This document shows, one piece after another, positions 19,959 through 30,879 of a stretch of 64,000 nucleotides of DNA (positions are counted from its first letter, which is position 1; each line of letters opens with the position of its first letter). The stretch spans positions 25,267,934 through 25,331,933 of the forward strand of contig NC_045138.2 of NCBI RefSeq assembly GCF_008831285.2, in the 5' to 3' direction. Made by a program: the position numbers and the translations under genes. This DNA comes from Nymphaea colorata. Its lineage: Eukaryota > Streptophyta > Magnoliopsida > Nymphaeales > Nymphaeaceae. The notes below the pieces were generated by a model. The model was not told the DNA's origin, ran no database searches, and was given only the letters and a program-made list of their open reading frames with translations.

Positions 19959-20280
19959 TGTTGGTGTATGAAATTTGATTCATACTGGACACTTATTTGC
20001 AATACCGTAGATTCAATTTCGCGGTGTAAGGACATTTATGTCATTTTGTACAAATGCGGGTTTGCCCTAATCTTTATGTTGTGAGGGGGGGCGCAGTTTC
20101 TTTTTGGGTCTTTTCTCTGAGAGTGTCTGTGTTCATCTGAAAGTGAATAGTGAAAGATCTGTGCGACCGTGGACGTAGGAGATTATTGCTCTGAACCACG
20201 TAAATCTTTGTCTTCTTCCTTATTGTTTCTATCCTCTTCTTGAGAGTGCGAGAGGAGAGTTTTGTGTATTGTTTCTAACA
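19959..20280 (+). mobile_element. Solo LTR, probably Ty1-copia type
   Basis: The 322-bp unit begins TGTTGG and ends CTAACA, an inverted TG...CA terminus. The flanks TATCT and TACCT look like a 5-bp target duplication with one change. The 3' part (GTGGACGTAGGAG followed by GAACCACGTAAATCTTTGTC) resembles copia LTR R/U5 regions I remember. No internal retrotransposon sequence or second LTR lies nearby, hence a solo LTR left by recombination. Confidence 0.65.
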
Positions 20281-20623
20281 TACCTGTGAGGTTCAAATCG
20301 TTTTGGATGCAAGACCCTCTCCCTTTTTCCATACCTTTGGAATTTAAGACTACTTTGAAATTTGGGTGGAGAGTGGTACACAGTGTTACACATTCACTGT
20401 CTTAATATATAAGAGTAGTGTGAGAATTGAACTGATGATTGGAGTTTCACCCATCACTAACTAGGCTACACCACTTAAAACTAATGGATTGAGTCTGTCG
20501 GCAAGTACCTAAAAATCCTGTTGTCCAACTTAAAGGGAGGAAGTAAGCAGTTGTAATGAAAATTGGATATTGGATTGGATAGTTGGAACCTCAAATCCAT
20601 ACAAATATTGTTATACATTCAAA

Positions 20624-20905
20624 CCTTTTATTATGCTAAAAAAAATAATAAAGTACGTCATGAATAGTAGGAAGTTGACAGAAAGTATGCATCCAAAACC
20701 AGTTAATTTTTCTTTCTTTATGATGAAAATAGTGTTGGGTATATTTTGAAAAGGCGATATATACCTTTTATTATGCTAAAAAGAAAATAATAAGGTACGT
20801 CATGAATAGTAGGAAGTTGACAGAAAGTATGCATCCAAAACCAGTTAATTTTTCTTTCTTTATGATGAAAATAGTGTTGGGTATATTTTGAAAAGGCGAT
20901 ATATA
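20624..20905. repeat. Tandem duplication of about 140 bp
   Basis: Two adjacent copies start at CCTTTTATTATGC (20624 and 20764). They share the GTACGTCATGAATAG segment and differ mainly by small changes in an A-rich run and in the AT tract closing the second copy. Near-identity suggests a recent local duplication. No coding potential. Confidence 0.9.
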
Positions 20906-22281
20906 TATATATATATATCTCTCCAAGTCAATATTCATGCAACGTTGATTGAGTCCTGCCTCACGTTCAGCGTCACTACTAAGTTGATTTCTATTTCTCG
21001 AATGTCTAATCCGATACATTTAACTAAGGGAAATATAATTATCCCATAAAAGATAGTTATTTATGTTGCTTATCTATTTTGACTTCACTAAAAAGAGCCA
21101 CACTTGTTTGAGCTGTCCCACAAATTAGTGGGCAGTTTTTTCCTAATGGTAGCAAAAAAGAGTGTTACAAAGATCGGCTTTAATCCACTGAGCCAGTGGT
21201 AGGTATGCCAATTCGATCCAGTGGCCAATTAAGGAATACATTTGCTATTATTTTTAAAATATCTTTATGAGTTTTCTCATTTTAAGTAATTTGCAAGTTA
21301 TTTTTCACTTACTTCATTAAAAAACTAAATACTTTAATATTTCTGCCGATTTAAATAGATGGCTCAATCGGTCTATTCAAGCAGCTTGGCAACTTTTGAC
21401 TGGCACTTGCAGCAATTCAGTCCAGTACTCTTGGAAAACCCAATTTACTTCTTCTTTTTTTTTCTAAAACTCTCAAATCCAATTTATTTTATTTTTTTAG
21501 CTTGTATTTCAGGGCACCTTCAAAAAATGGCGTTTTGTGACCATTTGTGTTGTAATCAGTATTGAAAACTTTGTCTAGATAAAAATTACATTTTGTGTGA
21601 ATAATGTAAGGGGAGGCTAAGTGATTCACTTTCTGTCGAAAGCCAACGAAAATAAATTTTGATTACCTCAAACTCTATAACATAGCTCGTTTAAGTAGGA
21701 AACGTGTAGATGGTGCGTCCTTGCTTCGATTTTCATGGGTGTTACTCCTTTAAATTGTAAAAAATGGTAGTGCTTTATTGAATTGAAGGCAACCTGCTGC
21801 TCTTATAAACCCCAATGCAGCATAAGACTTTAGAGGTAGGAGAAATGAGGTCGGATTTCTCTTCCAAATGAAGTATTGTTATATGAGCAAATACGCTTTA
21901 AATTTCCGTTCACATTCAAAGTAATAGTTATAGGCGTCACCCAAATCACTCTAAAATTGTTCTATCCACATGTCTCCTCTAAAGCATTCATGGATAACTA
22001 AGATAGTCTTTTGGCACCAATAACTTATTGTTATTGTTTTAAGAATTTATTTCTGAAAAATAAAACAGATTCATCGAACACTTATAATGGCGTTTTATTA
22101 TTCTACCCTATTTTTTGAGAAGAGTTCTTCAAATAATAACATACCGTTGTAGATTAGAACCATTTTGAGTTTCGGACTTATAAATTTGAAATGGAATGTT
22201 ATGCTGGAGCACAGACCCGGATCGGATTCCACAATGGTAATTTTGTTGACAGGTAGGGATGCAATAGTAAATGTCGACTTA

Positions 22282-22290
22282 AAACCCTAA
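22282..22290 (+). promoter_or_regulatory. Telo-box upstream of fibrillarin
   Basis: AAACCCTAA lies about 100 bp before the fibrillarin start codon and is followed by two partial repeats (AAAACCCTC near 22290 and 22323). Telo-boxes are known promoter elements of plant translation, ribosome and snoRNA genes. A CTATATGAA near 22309 could be the TATA element. Confidence 0.6.
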
Positions 22291-22387
22291 AACCCTCGCC
22301 GCATCGCGCCTATATGAATCTCTAAAACCCTCTTCGCTCCTCACTCGCCCACGCTCAGACTCCAGAATCCCTTCGACTTCATTCAGG

Positions 22388-25300
22388 ATGAGGCCCCCGA
22401 GAGGTAAGCTTGCATCTTCTTCTTTCTTAAGCCTTCTTCTTGGTCATTCTTATTTGCTCGAGGGGCATATGTTCTTCCTTTCCGTGGATTTTGGAGGTTT
22501 TTCTCCTCATGTTTTAGGACACAGAGGAGATAAGGAGTTCTTCTTTCCCCACCCCTTGGAGCTTTATCACGCTATTTCATTACCGGTACTATCTTTTTTT
22601 TTCTTTGTGCTTGAAGGTAGAGGAGGAAGAGGTGATGGAGGACGAGGGCGTGGTGATGGCGGTGGAAGAGGAAGAGGGAGGTTTGGCGCGAGCGATAGGG
22701 GAGGAAGAGGCGGGGTAAGAGGCGGGGGAAGAGGTGGCGGAAGGGGTGGTGGAAGGGGACGTGGGAGAGGTGGTGGTGGAATGAAGGGTGGGAGCAGGGT
22801 GGTCGTCGAGCCGCATAGACATCAAGGAGTGTTTGTGGCAAAGGGGAAGGAAGACGCTCTCGTCACTAAGAATCTGGTTCCCGGAGAATCTGTCTACGGC
22901 GAGAAAAGAATTTCTGTTCAGGTGAAAAAGCACACCCTTTTTGACGCTTGTAGGCACAATCAGAGCGTTGATACTCGTTCTAGTCGTAGTGGTATATGTG
23001 TTATTTGAAATTTGGACCATTGTCAATCTTAAGCGAGGAATGTGATTACCAGAGAACTCGTCAAGAAGCACATTAGATAATTTCTCATGGTTGTGGTTTT
23101 CAATGTCCAGAATGAAGATGGTACGAAGGTGGAGTACCGAGTCTGGAATCCATTCCGGTCGAAGCTTGCGGCAGCTATTCTTGGTGGTGTGGACAATATT
23201 TGGATGGTAATTTCATTCTTCAGAGTATTTTTCTGCTTTACTAATGTATTCTGTTTCGTATTGGCGTCTCAGTTTTTTCTATTGTTGCGTTGTTAGGGAC
23301 CTGGATCTCGTGTTCTTTACCTAGGAGCTGCTTCAGGGACCACGGTGTCTCACGTCTCCGACCTTGTTGGCCCGGTAAGTTCCTGCTGAGGTGCCAGATT
23401 CCCTTCTTCACATAGTCTACATTGTTAGCAAATCGAATACGCATTGCTTACGAACCGTTTGGATGCGTTGTGAATTCCAATATCAAGTTTGAGGATTTCA
23501 TAAACTTGAGCAAGTCATCTGACTTTAGTAGCCTAGTTGAATATAACTTAAGATGCTCATCATTCAGTTTATCGTTAACTTGGTCTTGAGGATCTGATTT
23601 TGAGCACGAATTTTTCTTTTGTTTCTTTGATGTCTATTATTTTTTTTAACATTGATATACGATGTCTATTGTTTCTGACTTTTTTTTTTTATTTTTCTTG
23701 GTTTTTGTGCTTGTATTTTGTAGACCGGCGTGGTTTATGCTGTCGAATTTTCACATAGAAGTGGAAGGGACCTGGTGACCATGGCTGCAAAGAGGCCCAA
23801 TGTCGTGCCTATCATTGAGGATGCCAGGCATCCGGCGAAGTATCGCATGTTGGTTGGAATGGTTGATGTCATATTTTCTGATGTTGCACAGCCCGATCAG
23901 GTATAACCGTATCTGCTGTTTGAATTTTGTCTGCATCTAATCTTTTGGAGCAGGTGGATTGCATGTCTATTAGCACAAGCCTGTGATTTGAGTTCAATTC
24001 ATGTATTTGGTCGAGCTATTTATCTCATTTCAAAAATTTTGTTTTTTGTATTGGACTTCTGGCAATTCACGCATAAAGAAACAGGATGTCTTCAGCAATT
24101 CACGTCTCTCTCCCTCTCTCACTCTCTCACGTATACACACTCATCCGCACAAGCACACACGTTAACATAGTCACACAGGCAAGCCAAGGAACACACTGAC
24201 TTGCACTCACACACATGTTAAAGTAGATTACATTGCCAGTAGGTGACCCGATTTTCATTTGCATGTGATGAGGTTACTCGGATTCCCCTTCAGGACATCT
24301 TGGATGATGCAAATTCGAGTCTCTGATGCGAATGTGGACTTTTCCAACAAGTTTAAGTACATTTATTTTTTCATTTATGTTGTACCATTATGAAAGGCAA
24401 GGTGCATGTGATGAGTTTACTCGGATTCCCCTTCAGGACATATTGGATGATGCCAATTTCGAGTTTCTGATGCTAGTTATCTCTCTGTATTATTGAATAT
24501 TTTTAATGACCTGAATCAAAATTCTGATGCTTGTGCACAGAGGCTTGTGAACAGGTACTATCTTTCCGTTACTTTTTTACCTGGAAACATCTTGTTTCCT
24601 TTTCTTTCTACTGTTAATGTTAACATAATCTAATCCTGAATAAGTAGCACCTCATTATTGATGAATAATCAAAGAACTTTTTACAGTTTGTTTCACAAAA
24701 TATAATATAGTGGGTTAAACCACACATTTTTCTTTCTTTCCTTCTCATGTTGCTGGTGACTTGATGAGCAACTGCTGGAAAAGGTCTGTACTGGATATGT
24801 TTTTGATGTACCATTCTCTGCCTTAGACTAATATTTTTATGGTGGAGATGCAATTAATTCACCAGTATCATCAATTCCTACTCAATAATTTGTATTTCTA
24901 CATCTACTGATGATATGAAGCATGTCTTTGAAATTCTTTGACTGTTTTAGTTTAATTTATTGGTGTAATGGTGTACTTCTTATGTATGATTCTTTACTTG
25001 TACTCTTTGTTATGCAGGCACGTATTTTAGGCTTGAATGCGTCATACTTTTTGAAAAATGGTGGTCATTTCGTGATATCTATCAAGGTATGTAAAAATGC
25101 ATCTAGTTACATTAAGTAGAGACAGCCTAGATTTTGTATTTCCTTGCACTGTTTGTGAACATCTGCTTTCAATGTTGTGAGTCATTCGTTTTGAAGATCA
25201 GGCTTCATTCTTCGTCTGTGTTGAAACCATGAGATTTCATAAAAATGTTCTGTTTGTTAACCTGGCAATTTGTGTTAAACCGTTATTAAAGCTTGAAAGC

Positions 25301-25719
25301 TCGGCCGTTGTGACCCTTGCTGGTCTTGTTTCTTCTTTTGCTTGTCTTTGAACCCAAGCTCTTTTAGAACCACATGAGGTGGTAGTTGCTAGTTTCTGCC
25401 TTGGAGTAAGTAGATCAATGCACCCTTCCTGCTGACCATCTTGTTGAACCATTTGTTGTGCTTGTATTATCTTCCTTTTAGGATAGATGACACCCCTCTC
25501 TCTGTCTTCCTCTTTCTAATTAGTTTCTTGTACCAGGCAAATTGCATTGACTCTACTGTGCCAGCTGAGGCTGTTTTTGCACAAGAGGTGAAAAAGCTGC
25601 AGGCCGATCAGTTCAAGCCGGCTGAGCAGGTTACGCTGGAGCCTTTTGAGCGGGACCATGCCTGTGTTGTTGGTGCCTACAGGGTGCCCAAGAAACAGAA
25701 ATCCGCAGCTGCCGCATAA
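22388..25719 (+). CDS. FIB: Fibrillarin, rRNA 2'-O-methyltransferase
   Basis: Fibrillarin is the catalytic subunit of box C/D snoRNPs in the nucleolus and transfers methyl groups from S-adenosylmethionine to rRNA 2'-hydroxyls. Exons are 22388-22403, 22617-22921, 23111-23206, 23297-23374, 23724-23900, 25018-25086 and 25537-25719; they total 924 nt, or 307 aa. The first coding exon is only 16 nt (MRPPR plus one base). Residues 6 to about 55 form the Gly-Arg rich GAR domain. The methyltransferase domain has the SAM-binding motif [17 protein letters not shown], then [21 protein letters not shown] and [13 protein letters not shown]. The protein ends [11 protein letters not shown]. At the exon 3/4 junction it reads NIWMGPGSRV where I remember NIWIKPGARV. 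Intron 5 hosts two C/D snoRNAs, as fibrillarin genes do in Arabidopsis. An upstream telo-box fits co-regulation with ribosome biogenesis. Confidence 0.97.
24261..24329 (+). ncRNA. Box C/D snoRNA, intronic copy 1 (U60-like)
   Basis: In intron 5 of fibrillarin. Box C is GTGATGA (24265-24271), box D is CTGA (24323-24326), a C'-like GATGATG lies at 24303-24309 and a degenerate D' (CAGG) at 24291-24294. The flanking GCA and TGC can form the short closing stem. Just before D' is TCGGATTCCCCTT, complementary over 13 nt to AAGGGGAATCCGA, which I recall as a conserved 25S rRNA segment. Arabidopsis fibrillarin genes are known to host U60 in an intron, so this is probably the homologue. The identity needs a sequence comparison. 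Confidence 0.85.
24404..24473 (+). ncRNA. Box C/D snoRNA, intronic copy 2 (U60-like)
   Basis: A second copy about 143 bp downstream of the first in the same intron. It keeps box C GTGATGA (24408-24414), the TCGGATTCCCCTT guide, D' CAGG, C' GATGATG and box D CTGA (24467-24470), with the same GCA/TGC stem. It differs by a few bases, mainly between C' and D, while the spacers between the copies have diverged. Boxes and guide are conserved where the neighbouring intron is not, which points to two functional guide RNAs. Confidence 0.85.
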
Positions 25720-28177
25720 CCTTCCAAACTACACTCGGATGTTTCTTCTCTTTTATAGTTTTAGGAAAATTTTTTTTGTCAGCAATTTGAAATTCTGTAC
25801 TCTGCTAAATGCGGGGCTGCAACACTTTGGTGTAACTGCTGTGATTATGAACGTCATATTTAAAGTTGCACGTTTTGGAGGATATAATCTTTTTCTCCTG
25901 TCTGGTGAAATGGGAACAATTGTTGCTGGAGTTCCATCCATCTCAATGGCCTAATGGGCAGATTTTCAAAAATGGGGTTTTCGTGCCAACCCATTTGGAG
26001 GTGACAAGTTCCTGAAACATGCTTCTTTCCATTGGCAACAAATCCATCCCTTCTGTACTTGATCCTGTATCAAATTCAAAATTTCGTTCACCGTCTACAG
26101 TAAATTCCAGGGCTAGCAAACGCTTCCTTTATGCACATAAAATAAACGTGGTCTAGTGCTTGGAACCTTTTAAATATAGAGGTTTTCAGCGTTGCGGTTC
26201 TAGACTAGGAGATGCGGATGCAAGAAAAATTTCTCGAGAATAACAAAAAAGACAAAGAAGAGCGCGATTGCTAAAAAGCATGAAACTGGCCCTCTGGTCA
26301 GCCATCTCTACGTCTTGACCTCCACTGTAGTAGTCATCAGCCGATGCCTTCGCTCCATAAAGTAAAGTGCTTTACGCGCTTTTCCGAATTCGATGGCATC
26401 CTTTTTCATTTTTTTGTTGGTTTACTATTTGATGGCATGGCATCTATCAGGAACCATGCTGAGCTTGCGTCCTGTCTCAAGGTGAGTCCGCCCGCCATCT
26501 TGCCTGGGAAACTCACAGTCCATCATGGTAAAGTTTCCAGGTCTCAGATTAACAGAGCTGCAACATCGGCCATGAAAGGCCAGTGAGTAGGTTAACCATT
26601 GATACGGCACAAGCTTCTGGCTCTGGTGATACTGCTAATCTGTACGCCCCATGAAAGACATTGGTTTGAACGGGGTTTGATTGATGTGAAGCACAGTGTT
26701 CCTGTAGCAGTGCTGTCAATGAGAACAGATCCATGACGTAATTGGCGGATCTTATCCTTTGTCCGCACATGGCGACCGCGTTAACAGATGCTGATCATGT
26801 CGCCAGACAGCTTTGATACACTGTGACATACATTATAGATAGCCCTTGATTTTTTCTTTTTTAATTCTGTCATTTTGTAGATTAAAATGCAATCTTATCA
26901 TTGAAGAAGACGTTCAATGTTGTGATGCTGAAGCTTTATCGATGACCAAAGCCTGCTCAGACGCACACTAAGTTTGAGAACGGTAGAGACTTAAGAGGAT
27001 ACCGTTTTTAAGTTCATAGATCAACGAAGCTGGAGTACAAAGGAGTTCAAACTCAGAAAGGTTTGATAGAAAAGACGTAGAACAGGAACCAGTTTAAATG
27101 CCTAGTGCACCTTTCAAGATGGGGAACCGATCTTGAAGGGGAAACAAGTTCAAAATGGTTTCAGTGTAAACGTGTAAAAATTAAAGGCTGAGATTCCGCA
27201 CATACTCTGACATGTGACATGTCGGAGAACAAATTCGTCGAGAGAGGTTCTTCTTTCTGGCTCCGTAGTTGTCATGGCCTCCATTTGCCTGTCTCCCTAT
27301 GAAGAAAAAGCGACTTTTCTTATATCTTCTGTACCACTTTATGTACATAAGCAAGTTTGGAAAATGAGGCATGCAAGTCAAATGCAAGACAAGCCATGTA
27401 CTCCTTTTCCTGCTAAATTGCCAGGCAACGGATACTGTCGCAAATGAACATGTCTGGACAGAGGTCTAAACAGAAGGACCGAAACTGATCAAGAATATGA
27501 GTTTGGAGAACTGGGACATGGTTCCTCTGATTTCAGCCTCTCACCCTCTTAGCAAACGCAAGAAGTTAAAGTAGTGAACAAACAAGCTAATCTGTTGTCC
27601 TAAGGGACACACCTTTCCGATTTCTCTGAGAAAACCGGTAGCCCTCACATGGTGGTGACCATTCATCACTAAAATGAAGGTCGAGATGGCCAAACTAGTT
27701 AAGAAATGTGATTGAGCAGATCATAATGTCTGTTTACTGTTGATCACGAGGTCTGGAGATACCACACAGTAATAGAGAATCATAAACTTGAGCGGGGAGG
27801 TCCCACCTGCACTTGTTCTGTCCCTTTCACCTGCTTGCCAGTGGACTCGTTTCACACCACCATTAGCCCATTGGTCAGGTTGTTCCAAGGCAACGTGATC
27901 TCAGAGTGTTCCGTCTGGACATTTCCATGTCTATCACTTTTGGCATCTCGTGGTGAACGCCAGTCAGGGAGGGAAAGATAGGACAGACGTGCAGATCCCC
28001 GCGCAATTCTACAGAACATCCTTTTGGTATCCTATAATATGAAATGGCCCTTACATTCTGCTGAGGGGAGCCCACACGGTTTACCATTTGCTCTATTTAC
28101 ACGCCCAGAATCTTGCTCACAACACACCTCTCAAGACACACACTCTCACACACACACAGAAAGAGAGACAGAGAGAG
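25720..28177. other. Spacer between fibrillarin and the GDSL gene
   Basis: Contains the fibrillarin 3' UTR and the GDSL promoter. The open stretches at 26344-26586 and 27214-27447 show no recognisable domain or splice context. CA and GA runs at about 28140-28177 directly precede the GDSL start codon, as is common in plant 5' leaders. Confidence 0.6.
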
Positions 28178-30879
28178 ATGTCTGTGTGGGGCTTGAGGTT
28201 GCTGTGCTTTGTGACGGTTCTGGTTGGGGGATGTAAAGCAGCGAATGCAGTGGAAGAGGATCCCCGGAAGACATCGGTCCCTGCGCTCTTCATCTTTGGG
28301 GACTCACTGGTGGATGTGGGCAACAACAACTTCCTGAAGCTGGCGCTCGACAAGGCCAACTTCCCCCACAACGGGATCGATTATGCAGGACAGAAAGCAA
28401 CTGGCAGGTTCAGCAATGGCATGAACTCTGCAGATTTCATGGGTACTCTCTCTTTCGCTCTCATTTTCATCTACTACATTTGTTTTGGTTCTGCCAGTAT
28501 ATTGCCTGGTTATCATTGAATTGGCATTGTAAATTTCCAAATTCCAACATCCTGTTGGAAACAGTCCTTTTGAGTAATGTTTAATCAATGTTCTGCTGTC
28601 GCTCTCTCTCATTCTCTAATCTCTCTCCGTCGAAACTTTTTTGCGCTTATAGTTTCATCACTATTCAAAAAGTGCGCCTTCATTTCTGAATTTTCGAAGT
28701 CTGTAACTTCACCGTCGTCCCATAGATGAAGTCAAACTCACTTGAGAAAATGACAGTATTACCTTGAACCGAATTATCAGTTTTCAGTTTCGGGTGAGTG
28801 GGAGGAAACCCACCGCCGGCCAAAGTCTTCTGGAATAAGTCAGGTGCTTTATTAATAAATATCGAAAACTTAGTCATCCTTTTTGGTTACTGCCAAGACT
28901 TCAGGTGTAGTTTAAAAAAGAAATTCATTAATTTTCAGTTGAATTTGTCACTTGTAACAGTGATAGTCTAAAATATTATCCATAATTTGGATTAAAGATA
29001 ATACTCATACTTCATTACTTCCAGAAGTTCGACTCTGTTGGTTTACGATATACTCACATCGGACCAGCCGTGCCACATTGTGTAATTGAGAAATCAGAGA
29101 GCAAAGGAGAGCCATCTAACTCTGTTTATTCTGCAGCTCAGAAGCTGGGTTTGGCAACCTCTCCTCCGTATCTTTCTCTAAACAATGCTAAAGGTAGTAG
29201 CTCCATCATGGGCGGCGTCAGCTTCGCATCAGGAGGAGCAGGCATACTGGATGGATCTCCAAAACCAAAAATTTTTGTATGCGTCTCATGGCCTTTGTCG
29301 TCGTCACCGCATTAACACTGGTTGCAATTTCATCTGTTGTCGAGCTCTTACGCTTAAGTAGATCGTTCCTTAGACAGTCCTGTTCTTATTGACTGCAGGA
29401 ACAGACGATACCACTCAATAAACAGATTGAGTTCTACTCAACCGTCTATGGGCAGTTTGTGGAACAACTAGGGAGCATTGAAGCCCAAAAGTATCTATCA
29501 AGATCACTGTTTGCAGTGGTTATAGGAAGTAATGACATACTGGGATACTTCAAACCTACTTCCTCAATGAAACAAAAGTATTCTCCCCAACAATATTTAG
29601 ATCTGCTGATGACCACATTGAAAGGTCAGCTTCAGGTAAATTTTCAACCAGTTAGCGCTTTAGTCTTAGTTGATTTCTGCTCAAAATAGCTCTATACATC
29701 TCGTTGGAAAGCGATTCAGAAGGTTTCAAGTTGCAGAAGGAACTTGAAATCTGGAGCCGCCCGTCTCCTGCTAAGGGGTCAATAGTAGGCAATGGTGGAG
29801 CTTCATATGGTTCAGGGTGGACTTGTGATCACCTAGTGTTGAAAATCTTGGAAGGAATGTACAGGCGGTCATGGGTGGCATTTGAACCAAGAACAGTACC
29901 GCAGTACCTCTCTAAACTTTATAACCAGTACCCCCATGGTTTATTCTGTGCCTGCTACTGAACCTGGGTGTGATGGACCAGAGGAGTCTCCGGGCTTCAA
30001 TTCCAGGGAATGAACCAACTGGTTGCACAAGGTTCCTGAGATAGAGGACCACTATCAGAGCAATCTGTTGAAGCTGTGTTATCACAAAGAATCCATGACA
30101 ATATGAGTAGGAATAACAGCTTTCTGCTCTGGCATGGATCCTTTGTGATACTCATAGTTTCAACAGGTTTATTTAAGTTTCCAAGTTTGCAAATTTAATG
30201 AGCCTGGCCTGTTTAGCTCTGTGAAACTAACTGGAGCTAGAGTTGGATGTCTTAGTTAGCAAGGCTTCATTTATCTAATTGTTACTGCAAAATGTTTCAG
30301 AGGATATACAATCTGGGTGCACGCAAAATAGTATCCGTTGGGGTTGGACCAATCGGATGTAGCCCTAAAATAAGAGCTAGAAATGAAACAGAAGGTTGCG
30401 ATGAAGAGACAAACGACTGGTGTGCGAGGTATAATGAAGCTGTCGTGAGACTCCTGCAGAACTTGAAATCTGAATTGAAGGACTTCAACTATTCCTTCTT
30501 TAACACTTACCTCCTTGTGCATGACTTCATCGAAAGGCCTTCTTCCCATGGTGATACACTCTATTCGTTAATTATTATTATTATTAATTCCTCTTTTGTG
30601 CTAGAATTTCGATCAACTTACTGGTTTTTCCTATTTTTATTGTGGTTTGGATTTGCAGGATTTGTGGAGGTTAAAGCTGCCTGTTGTGGGCTAGGAAAGC
30701 TGAACGCCATTTTTCCCTGCATACCGATTTCACACTATTGTGGGAATAGATCGGATCATGTATTTTGGGATTTTTATCACCCCACAGAGGCTGCTTCTCG
30801 TATGCTCGCTGATGCTGCTTTTGATGGCTCACCACCTTTTGTTTACCCCTTTAATGTAAGGAAACTTTCAGCAATGTAG
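28178..30879 (+). CDS. GDSL-type esterase/lipase
   Basis: A secreted SGNH-hydrolase of the large plant GDSL family; the substrate cannot be read from the sequence. Exons are 28178-28442, 29137-29276, 29399-29635, 30301-30550 and 30659-30879; they total 1113 nt, or 370 aa, usual for the family. A signal peptide (MSVWGLRLLCFVTVLVGGCKA) is followed by block I FIFGDSLVDVGNNN with nucleophile S43, block II GGVSFASGGAGILD, block III VVIGSNDILGYF, VGVGPIGC, and block V VFWDFYHPTEAA with D335 and H338. The start is the ATG after the GAGAGAG leader, the only one that gives the signal peptide. Intron 3 (29636-30300) is long and holds an 85-codon open stretch that I do not recognise. All catalytic blocks are present, so the gene looks functional. 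Confidence 0.95.

Follow-up and report, generated by a model that had tools for sequence, protein, structure and literature searches.

Tandem box C/D snoRNAs of the U60 family in a fibrillarin intron of Nymphaea colorata

Barneche et al. 2000 is said to be the original report of the box C/D snoRNA U60 in the Arabidopsis fibrillarin genes FIB1 and FIB2, and Liang et al. 2002 reportedly described intronic clustered snoRNA genes in rice. In the part of PMC8053127 available to us, an Arabidopsis RiboMeth-seq study, U60.1F is placed in an intron of FIB1 and U60.2F in an intron of FIB2; Gm2125 is reduced in fib1-1, which does not express U60.1F, but not in fib2-1, in which U60.2F is still made. The accessible part of PMC8351944 also deals with U60.1F and U60.2F in these two genes. 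As far as the available text of PMC5122169 goes, plant paralogous snoRNAs may lie side by side or several per intron; its main text contains neither U60 nor snoR60. The latter is named in PMC11222342 and PMC5513076.

The locus of Nymphaea colorata described here resembles that of Arabidopsis, as given in these excerpts, in the RNA family, the host gene and, by homology, the 25S target base. That Arabidopsis fibrillarin hosts U60 had been stated in an earlier, sequence-only reading of this DNA, and agrees with what that part of PMC8053127 reports. The arrangement differs: Arabidopsis has two fibrillarin genes with one U60 each, whereas in Nymphaea colorata the sole fibrillarin gene found has two U60 in one intron. 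Several snoRNAs per intron and adjacent paralogues are known from plant clusters, but two copies of one RNA in a fibrillarin gene were not seen in the literature searched, which includes papers available in part. This open-licence literature yielded no published description of U60 paired in tandem within fibrillarin, which does not amount to showing its absence from print.

U60 is here in its known home; the case is mostly ordinary, and the side-by-side pair is the only twist. The locus extends the siting of U60 within the fibrillarin gene to another plant, and to the Arabidopsis arrangement it adds a tandem pair. The linkage between U60 and fibrillarin would span one of the earliest flowering-plant splits, while the general picture of snoRNA action is unchanged. 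A table in the portion of PMC2780460 available to us lists human U60 with yeast snR48 and a different site. The names of the plant and human RNAs are therefore not to be equated, the name being all that the two share.

The fibrillarin gene and the two units in its fifth intron

The window, i.e. the whole 64-kb stretch of DNA that was analysed, contains a fibrillarin gene with the following features (positions are those of the window).

22388..25719, + strand: fibrillarin coding region, seven-exon gene model, PF01269
22388-22403, 22617-22921, 23111-23206, 23297-23374, 23724-23900, 25018-25086, 25537-25719, + strand: fibrillarin exons of the gene model
23901..25017, + strand: host intron 5 of the gene model, 1117 nt, GT..AG

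In this gene model 6/6 introns are GT..AG, intron 5 being the longest, and the product is a protein of 307 aa with the N-terminus MRPPRGRGGRG. PF01269 Fibrillarin covers its residues 69-296 (E 3.1e-108), which bears out the earlier placement of the snoRNAs in intron 5 of a fibrillarin gene. A six-frame PF01269 search of the assembly (407.8 Mb, 783 contigs; 4/4 candidates scored, gaps read as N) reported no second fibrillarin gene: the five exon matches all fall at this locus, so that the host is the only fibrillarin gene detected. A single gene is not odd in a seed plant, since the available part of PMC7608942 gives one FIB sequence for Picea abies and two for Amborella. By eye, CT-rich and CA-rich low-complexity DNA occupies 24105-24230, just 5' of the first snoRNA unit; such DNA might promote local duplications.

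The two units lie in intron 5, 71 nt apart.

24259..24330, + strand: U60/snoR60 copy 1, 72 nt; RF00339 90.5 bits, E 6.2e-19, model 1-72 of 72
24266..24271, + strand: copy 1 box C, TGATGA
24278..24290, + strand: copy 1 D' guide TCGGATTCCCCTT, 13 nt, complement of 25S AAGGGGAATCCGA
24291..24294, + strand: copy 1 box D', CAGG, its register backed by the Gm2125 position
24305..24310, + strand: copy 1 box C', TGATGC
24323..24326, + strand: copy 1 box D, CTGA
24261-24263 with 24327-24329, + strand: copy 1 GCA/TGC stem
24256-24263 with 24327-24334, + strand: copy 1 closing stem plus flank, 8 bp (7 Watson-Crick, 1 G-U)
24402..24474, + strand: U60/snoR60 copy 2, 73 nt; RF00339 85.9 bits, E 1.1e-17, model 1-72 of 72
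24409..24414, + strand: copy 2 box C, TGATGA
24421..24433, + strand: copy 2 D' guide TCGGATTCCCCTT
24434..24437, + strand: copy 2 box D', CAGG
24448..24453, + strand: copy 2 box C', TGATGC
24467..24470, + strand: copy 2 box D, CTGA
24404-24406 with 24471-24473, + strand: copy 2 closing stem GCA/TGC, 3 bp, next position unpaired

The scores come from a cmscan search of the whole window against Rfam 15, to which the E-values refer. Only two matches reach a gathering score (40 for RF00339), both to RF00339 snoR60 and both full-length, which confirms that the two tandem C/D snoRNAs proposed from the letters alone belong to the U60 family. The span proposed then, 24261-24473, is bounded by the outermost GCA and TGC, and the Rfam limits are slightly wider. 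An assembly-wide RF00339 search, in which 61 of 60,611 first-look candidates were scored and gaps were read as N, reported copies 1 and 2 as the only matches, hence no further U60 copies. As expected for a plant RNA, relatives gave no match in viral contigs (28-nt pattern) or in bacterial and archaeal contigs (20-nt pattern).

Both copies match all 72 positions of the model, and each agrees with the Rfam consensus at 63 of these; four departures (alignment columns 6, 7, 42 and 46) are common to the two. Each contains GTGATGA (RUGAUGA) and CTGA (CUGA), an internal C' TGATGC and a degenerate D' CAGG, which is two letters off CUGA. The copies are identical in 66 of 73 aligned columns, the rest being six substitutions and one inserted base, and no box or guide base differs. 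Boxes C, C', D' and D, the GCA/TGC stem and the 13-nt guide are kept in both copies, just as the sequence-only reading had them. The closing stem is 8 bp long in copy 1 and only 3 bp in copy 2, against the 4 pairs of the Rfam model.

By minimum-energy folding, copy 1 is equalled or bettered by 47/200 shuffles and copy 2 by 193/200, which counts somewhat against the latter, although this method does not model the kink-turn and is of little guidance for C/D snoRNAs.

Another snoRNA family was considered and rejected: the sole other match, to SNORD12/SNORD106 (RF00581), came from a laxer cmscan search of 20000-30000 and is below the gathering score of 43. It is a weak overlap with copy 1 that includes the UUCCCC guide core (22.5 bits, E 0.87), and is to be taken as a lead only.

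The predicted 25S target and the register of the guide

The shared guide had been matched to 25S rRNA in the sequence-only reading, and the match holds. On both LSU pieces tried, the D' guides of the two copies form a mismatch-free pairing of 13 nt; in four runs (each copy on each LSU piece), 0/100 shuffled guides per run attained this length. On the 18S piece, the pairing of these guides is limited to 5 nt. Chance resemblance is ruled out by these runs together with the two RF00339 E-values. The assembly has three occurrences of the 14-mer AAGGGGAATCCGAC, 3/3 in stretches that match LSU rRNA.

Counted 5' from the D' box CAGG, the fifth guide base pairs with the third of the four Gs in GGGG. 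Counting along GGTACGGACAAGGGGAATCC, this G is the only one of the four with U at -11 and A at +2. The sites listed in the available part of PMC8053127 are U2114, G2125 (attributed to U60) and A2127; only the third G fits this spacing, which makes the predicted base the homologue of Arabidopsis 25S Gm2125. The accessible text of PMC6461891 uses another numbering, in which the target of U60.1F is LSU-G2114.

None of the three 25S places with the U60 target is an intact gene, all three being interrupted rDNA. The complementarity to the species' own 25S rRNA that was to be looked for is therefore found in interrupted copies, and the target in a working 25S gene of Nymphaea colorata was not seen. 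No working 25S gene was found with the patterns searched across the assembly, from which it may be absent.

Nothing convincing emerged for a second guide next to box D on partial rRNA, in pieces that cover a minor part of 18S and stop short of the 3' region of 25S. Watson-Crick runs adjacent to box D reach at most 7 nt there, and the best, that of copy 2 on 18S, is equalled by 5/100 shuffles; runs that allow G-U extend up to 10 and 11 nt, the shuffle comparison applying to Watson-Crick runs only.

Function and origin of the pair

We consider it probable that the plant box C/D snoRNA U60 is present here as two working copies, tandem-duplicated in intron 5 of the only fibrillarin gene detected; judging from their family, boxes, host and target complementarity, both are likely functional, copy 2 being the weaker. 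Each copy would be transcribed within the fibrillarin pre-mRNA and released from the intron through either post-splicing trimming or cleavage of a two-snoRNA precursor. A processing stem in the 71-nt spacer is no better than shuffles (z 0.34; 121/200 fold at least as well). The RNA would then assemble with 15.5K, NOP56, NOP58 and fibrillarin, its D' guide would pair with 25S AAGGGGAAUCCGA, and fibrillarin would methylate the 2'-O of the third G of GGGG in AAGGGGAAUCCGA, the homologue of Gm2125. A pair within a single gene could match the dose that two fibrillarin genes with one copy each provide in Arabidopsis.

From the conserved elements and the diverged bases around them, the sequence-only reading had argued for selection on both RNAs. 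The first half of this argument stands: the 70-nt flanks are unlike, since the real pair is equalled or outscored by 120/500 shuffles upstream and by 354/500 downstream, and the likeness of the copies ends within a base of the snoRNA limits. The second half does not follow as it was put, because unlike flanks point to selection only if the duplication took them in; had the snoRNA alone been copied, the flanks would never have been homologous. The pattern suggests either that both RNAs are under selection or that the snoRNA alone was duplicated.

A sign of selection that does not depend on the flanks may be read from the substitutions: on the cmscan alignment, with the inserted base excluded, 4/6 occupy the 14 lower-case (variable) columns of the Rfam consensus and 2/6 the 58 upper-case columns (one-sided Fisher p = 0.011; a second alignment places the inserted base elsewhere). 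With so few events (n = 6), it would be a modest sign that conserved columns are avoided.

The pair may be a lineage-specific duplication, as the sequence-only reading proposed. Regarding the origin of the second copy, as distinct from its function, it is possible, although we lean the other way, that the snoRNA alone was copied, by RNA reinsertion or by a very short duplication, rather than by a segmental duplication followed by decay of the flanks; the unlike flanks would then be uninformative on selection. The abrupt end of the likeness, and flanks no closer than shuffles, are what such copying would leave. Against this, direct repeats within 30 nt of either copy do not exceed 5 nt, which leaves no visible target-site duplication, and the shared intron, the shared strand and the 71-nt spacing fit a local tandem event.

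It is unlikely that copy 1 alone is the working U60 and that copy 2, a duplicate either young or in decay, owes its likeness to recent origin or gene conversion. The lower score of copy 2 (85.9 against 90.5 bits), its closing stem of 3 bp instead of 8 and its poor predicted fold all go in this direction; its boxes and guide are nevertheless intact, it matches the Rfam consensus at as many positions as copy 1, and the substitutions avoid conserved columns. We therefore still prefer a pair of working copies.

It would be decidedly improbable, in our opinion, that U60 was doubled in the sole fibrillarin gene through selection for a fixed ratio of U60 to fibrillarin; were it so, the doses of the guide and of the methyltransferase would be coupled in one gene, as opposed to the two FIB genes of Arabidopsis with one U60 each. 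Least probable of all, and barely credible to us, is a mainly cis role for the pair, in which snoRNPs assembling on intron 5 would compete with splicing in a feedback on the dose of fibrillarin: the host does encode the snoRNP methyltransferase and intron 5 is the longest of six, beyond which we would only be inferring, and such feedback is not needed to explain the arrangement in Arabidopsis, where U60 acts in trans on 25S according to the available part of PMC8053127.

LTR elements in the interrupted 25S copies

The places with the U60 target are the following.

C11:22797521, - strand: 25S place with the U60 target, locus L003
C11:23713327, + strand: 25S place with the U60 target, locus L004
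C594:7522, + strand: 25S place with the U60 target, locus L005

At all three, an LTR starts at the same base, directly after ...GCATTGCGAT / ...AAAACAAAGCATTGCGAT. The LTR begins with TGTTCCC and is followed by TGGTATCAGAGCC, a stretch that resembles a primer site. The two copies on contig C11 are nearly identical (386/387). The LTRs of C11 and C594 are 86-87% alike (317/368 and 318/367), and the rDNA sides 94-95% (377/403 and 360/377).

At C11:23718481-23719311 (L024), the far end of the C11 element, its second LTR ends in CCCGTGACA and is followed by GCGAT, then directly by an LTR of the C594 type. GCGAT stands on both sides of the first element, which points to a 5-bp target duplication. 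Insertion of two related LTR elements thus seems, from these junctions, to have occurred at one and the same 25S base. The family is not confined to rDNA, as five further LTRs belonging to it (L019-L023) are flanked by sequence other than 25S; two of them belong to one element, with CCAAC on both sides. LTR matches lie on 13 of the contigs C1-C14 and on only one other contig.

Positions 1-1541 of the C594 locus are rearranged rDNA, in which internal 25S directly follows some 436 nt from the 5' part of 18S. Last, a fourth match to the 25S/LTR junction pattern, with 3 mismatches, lies at C1:35123998-35124022.
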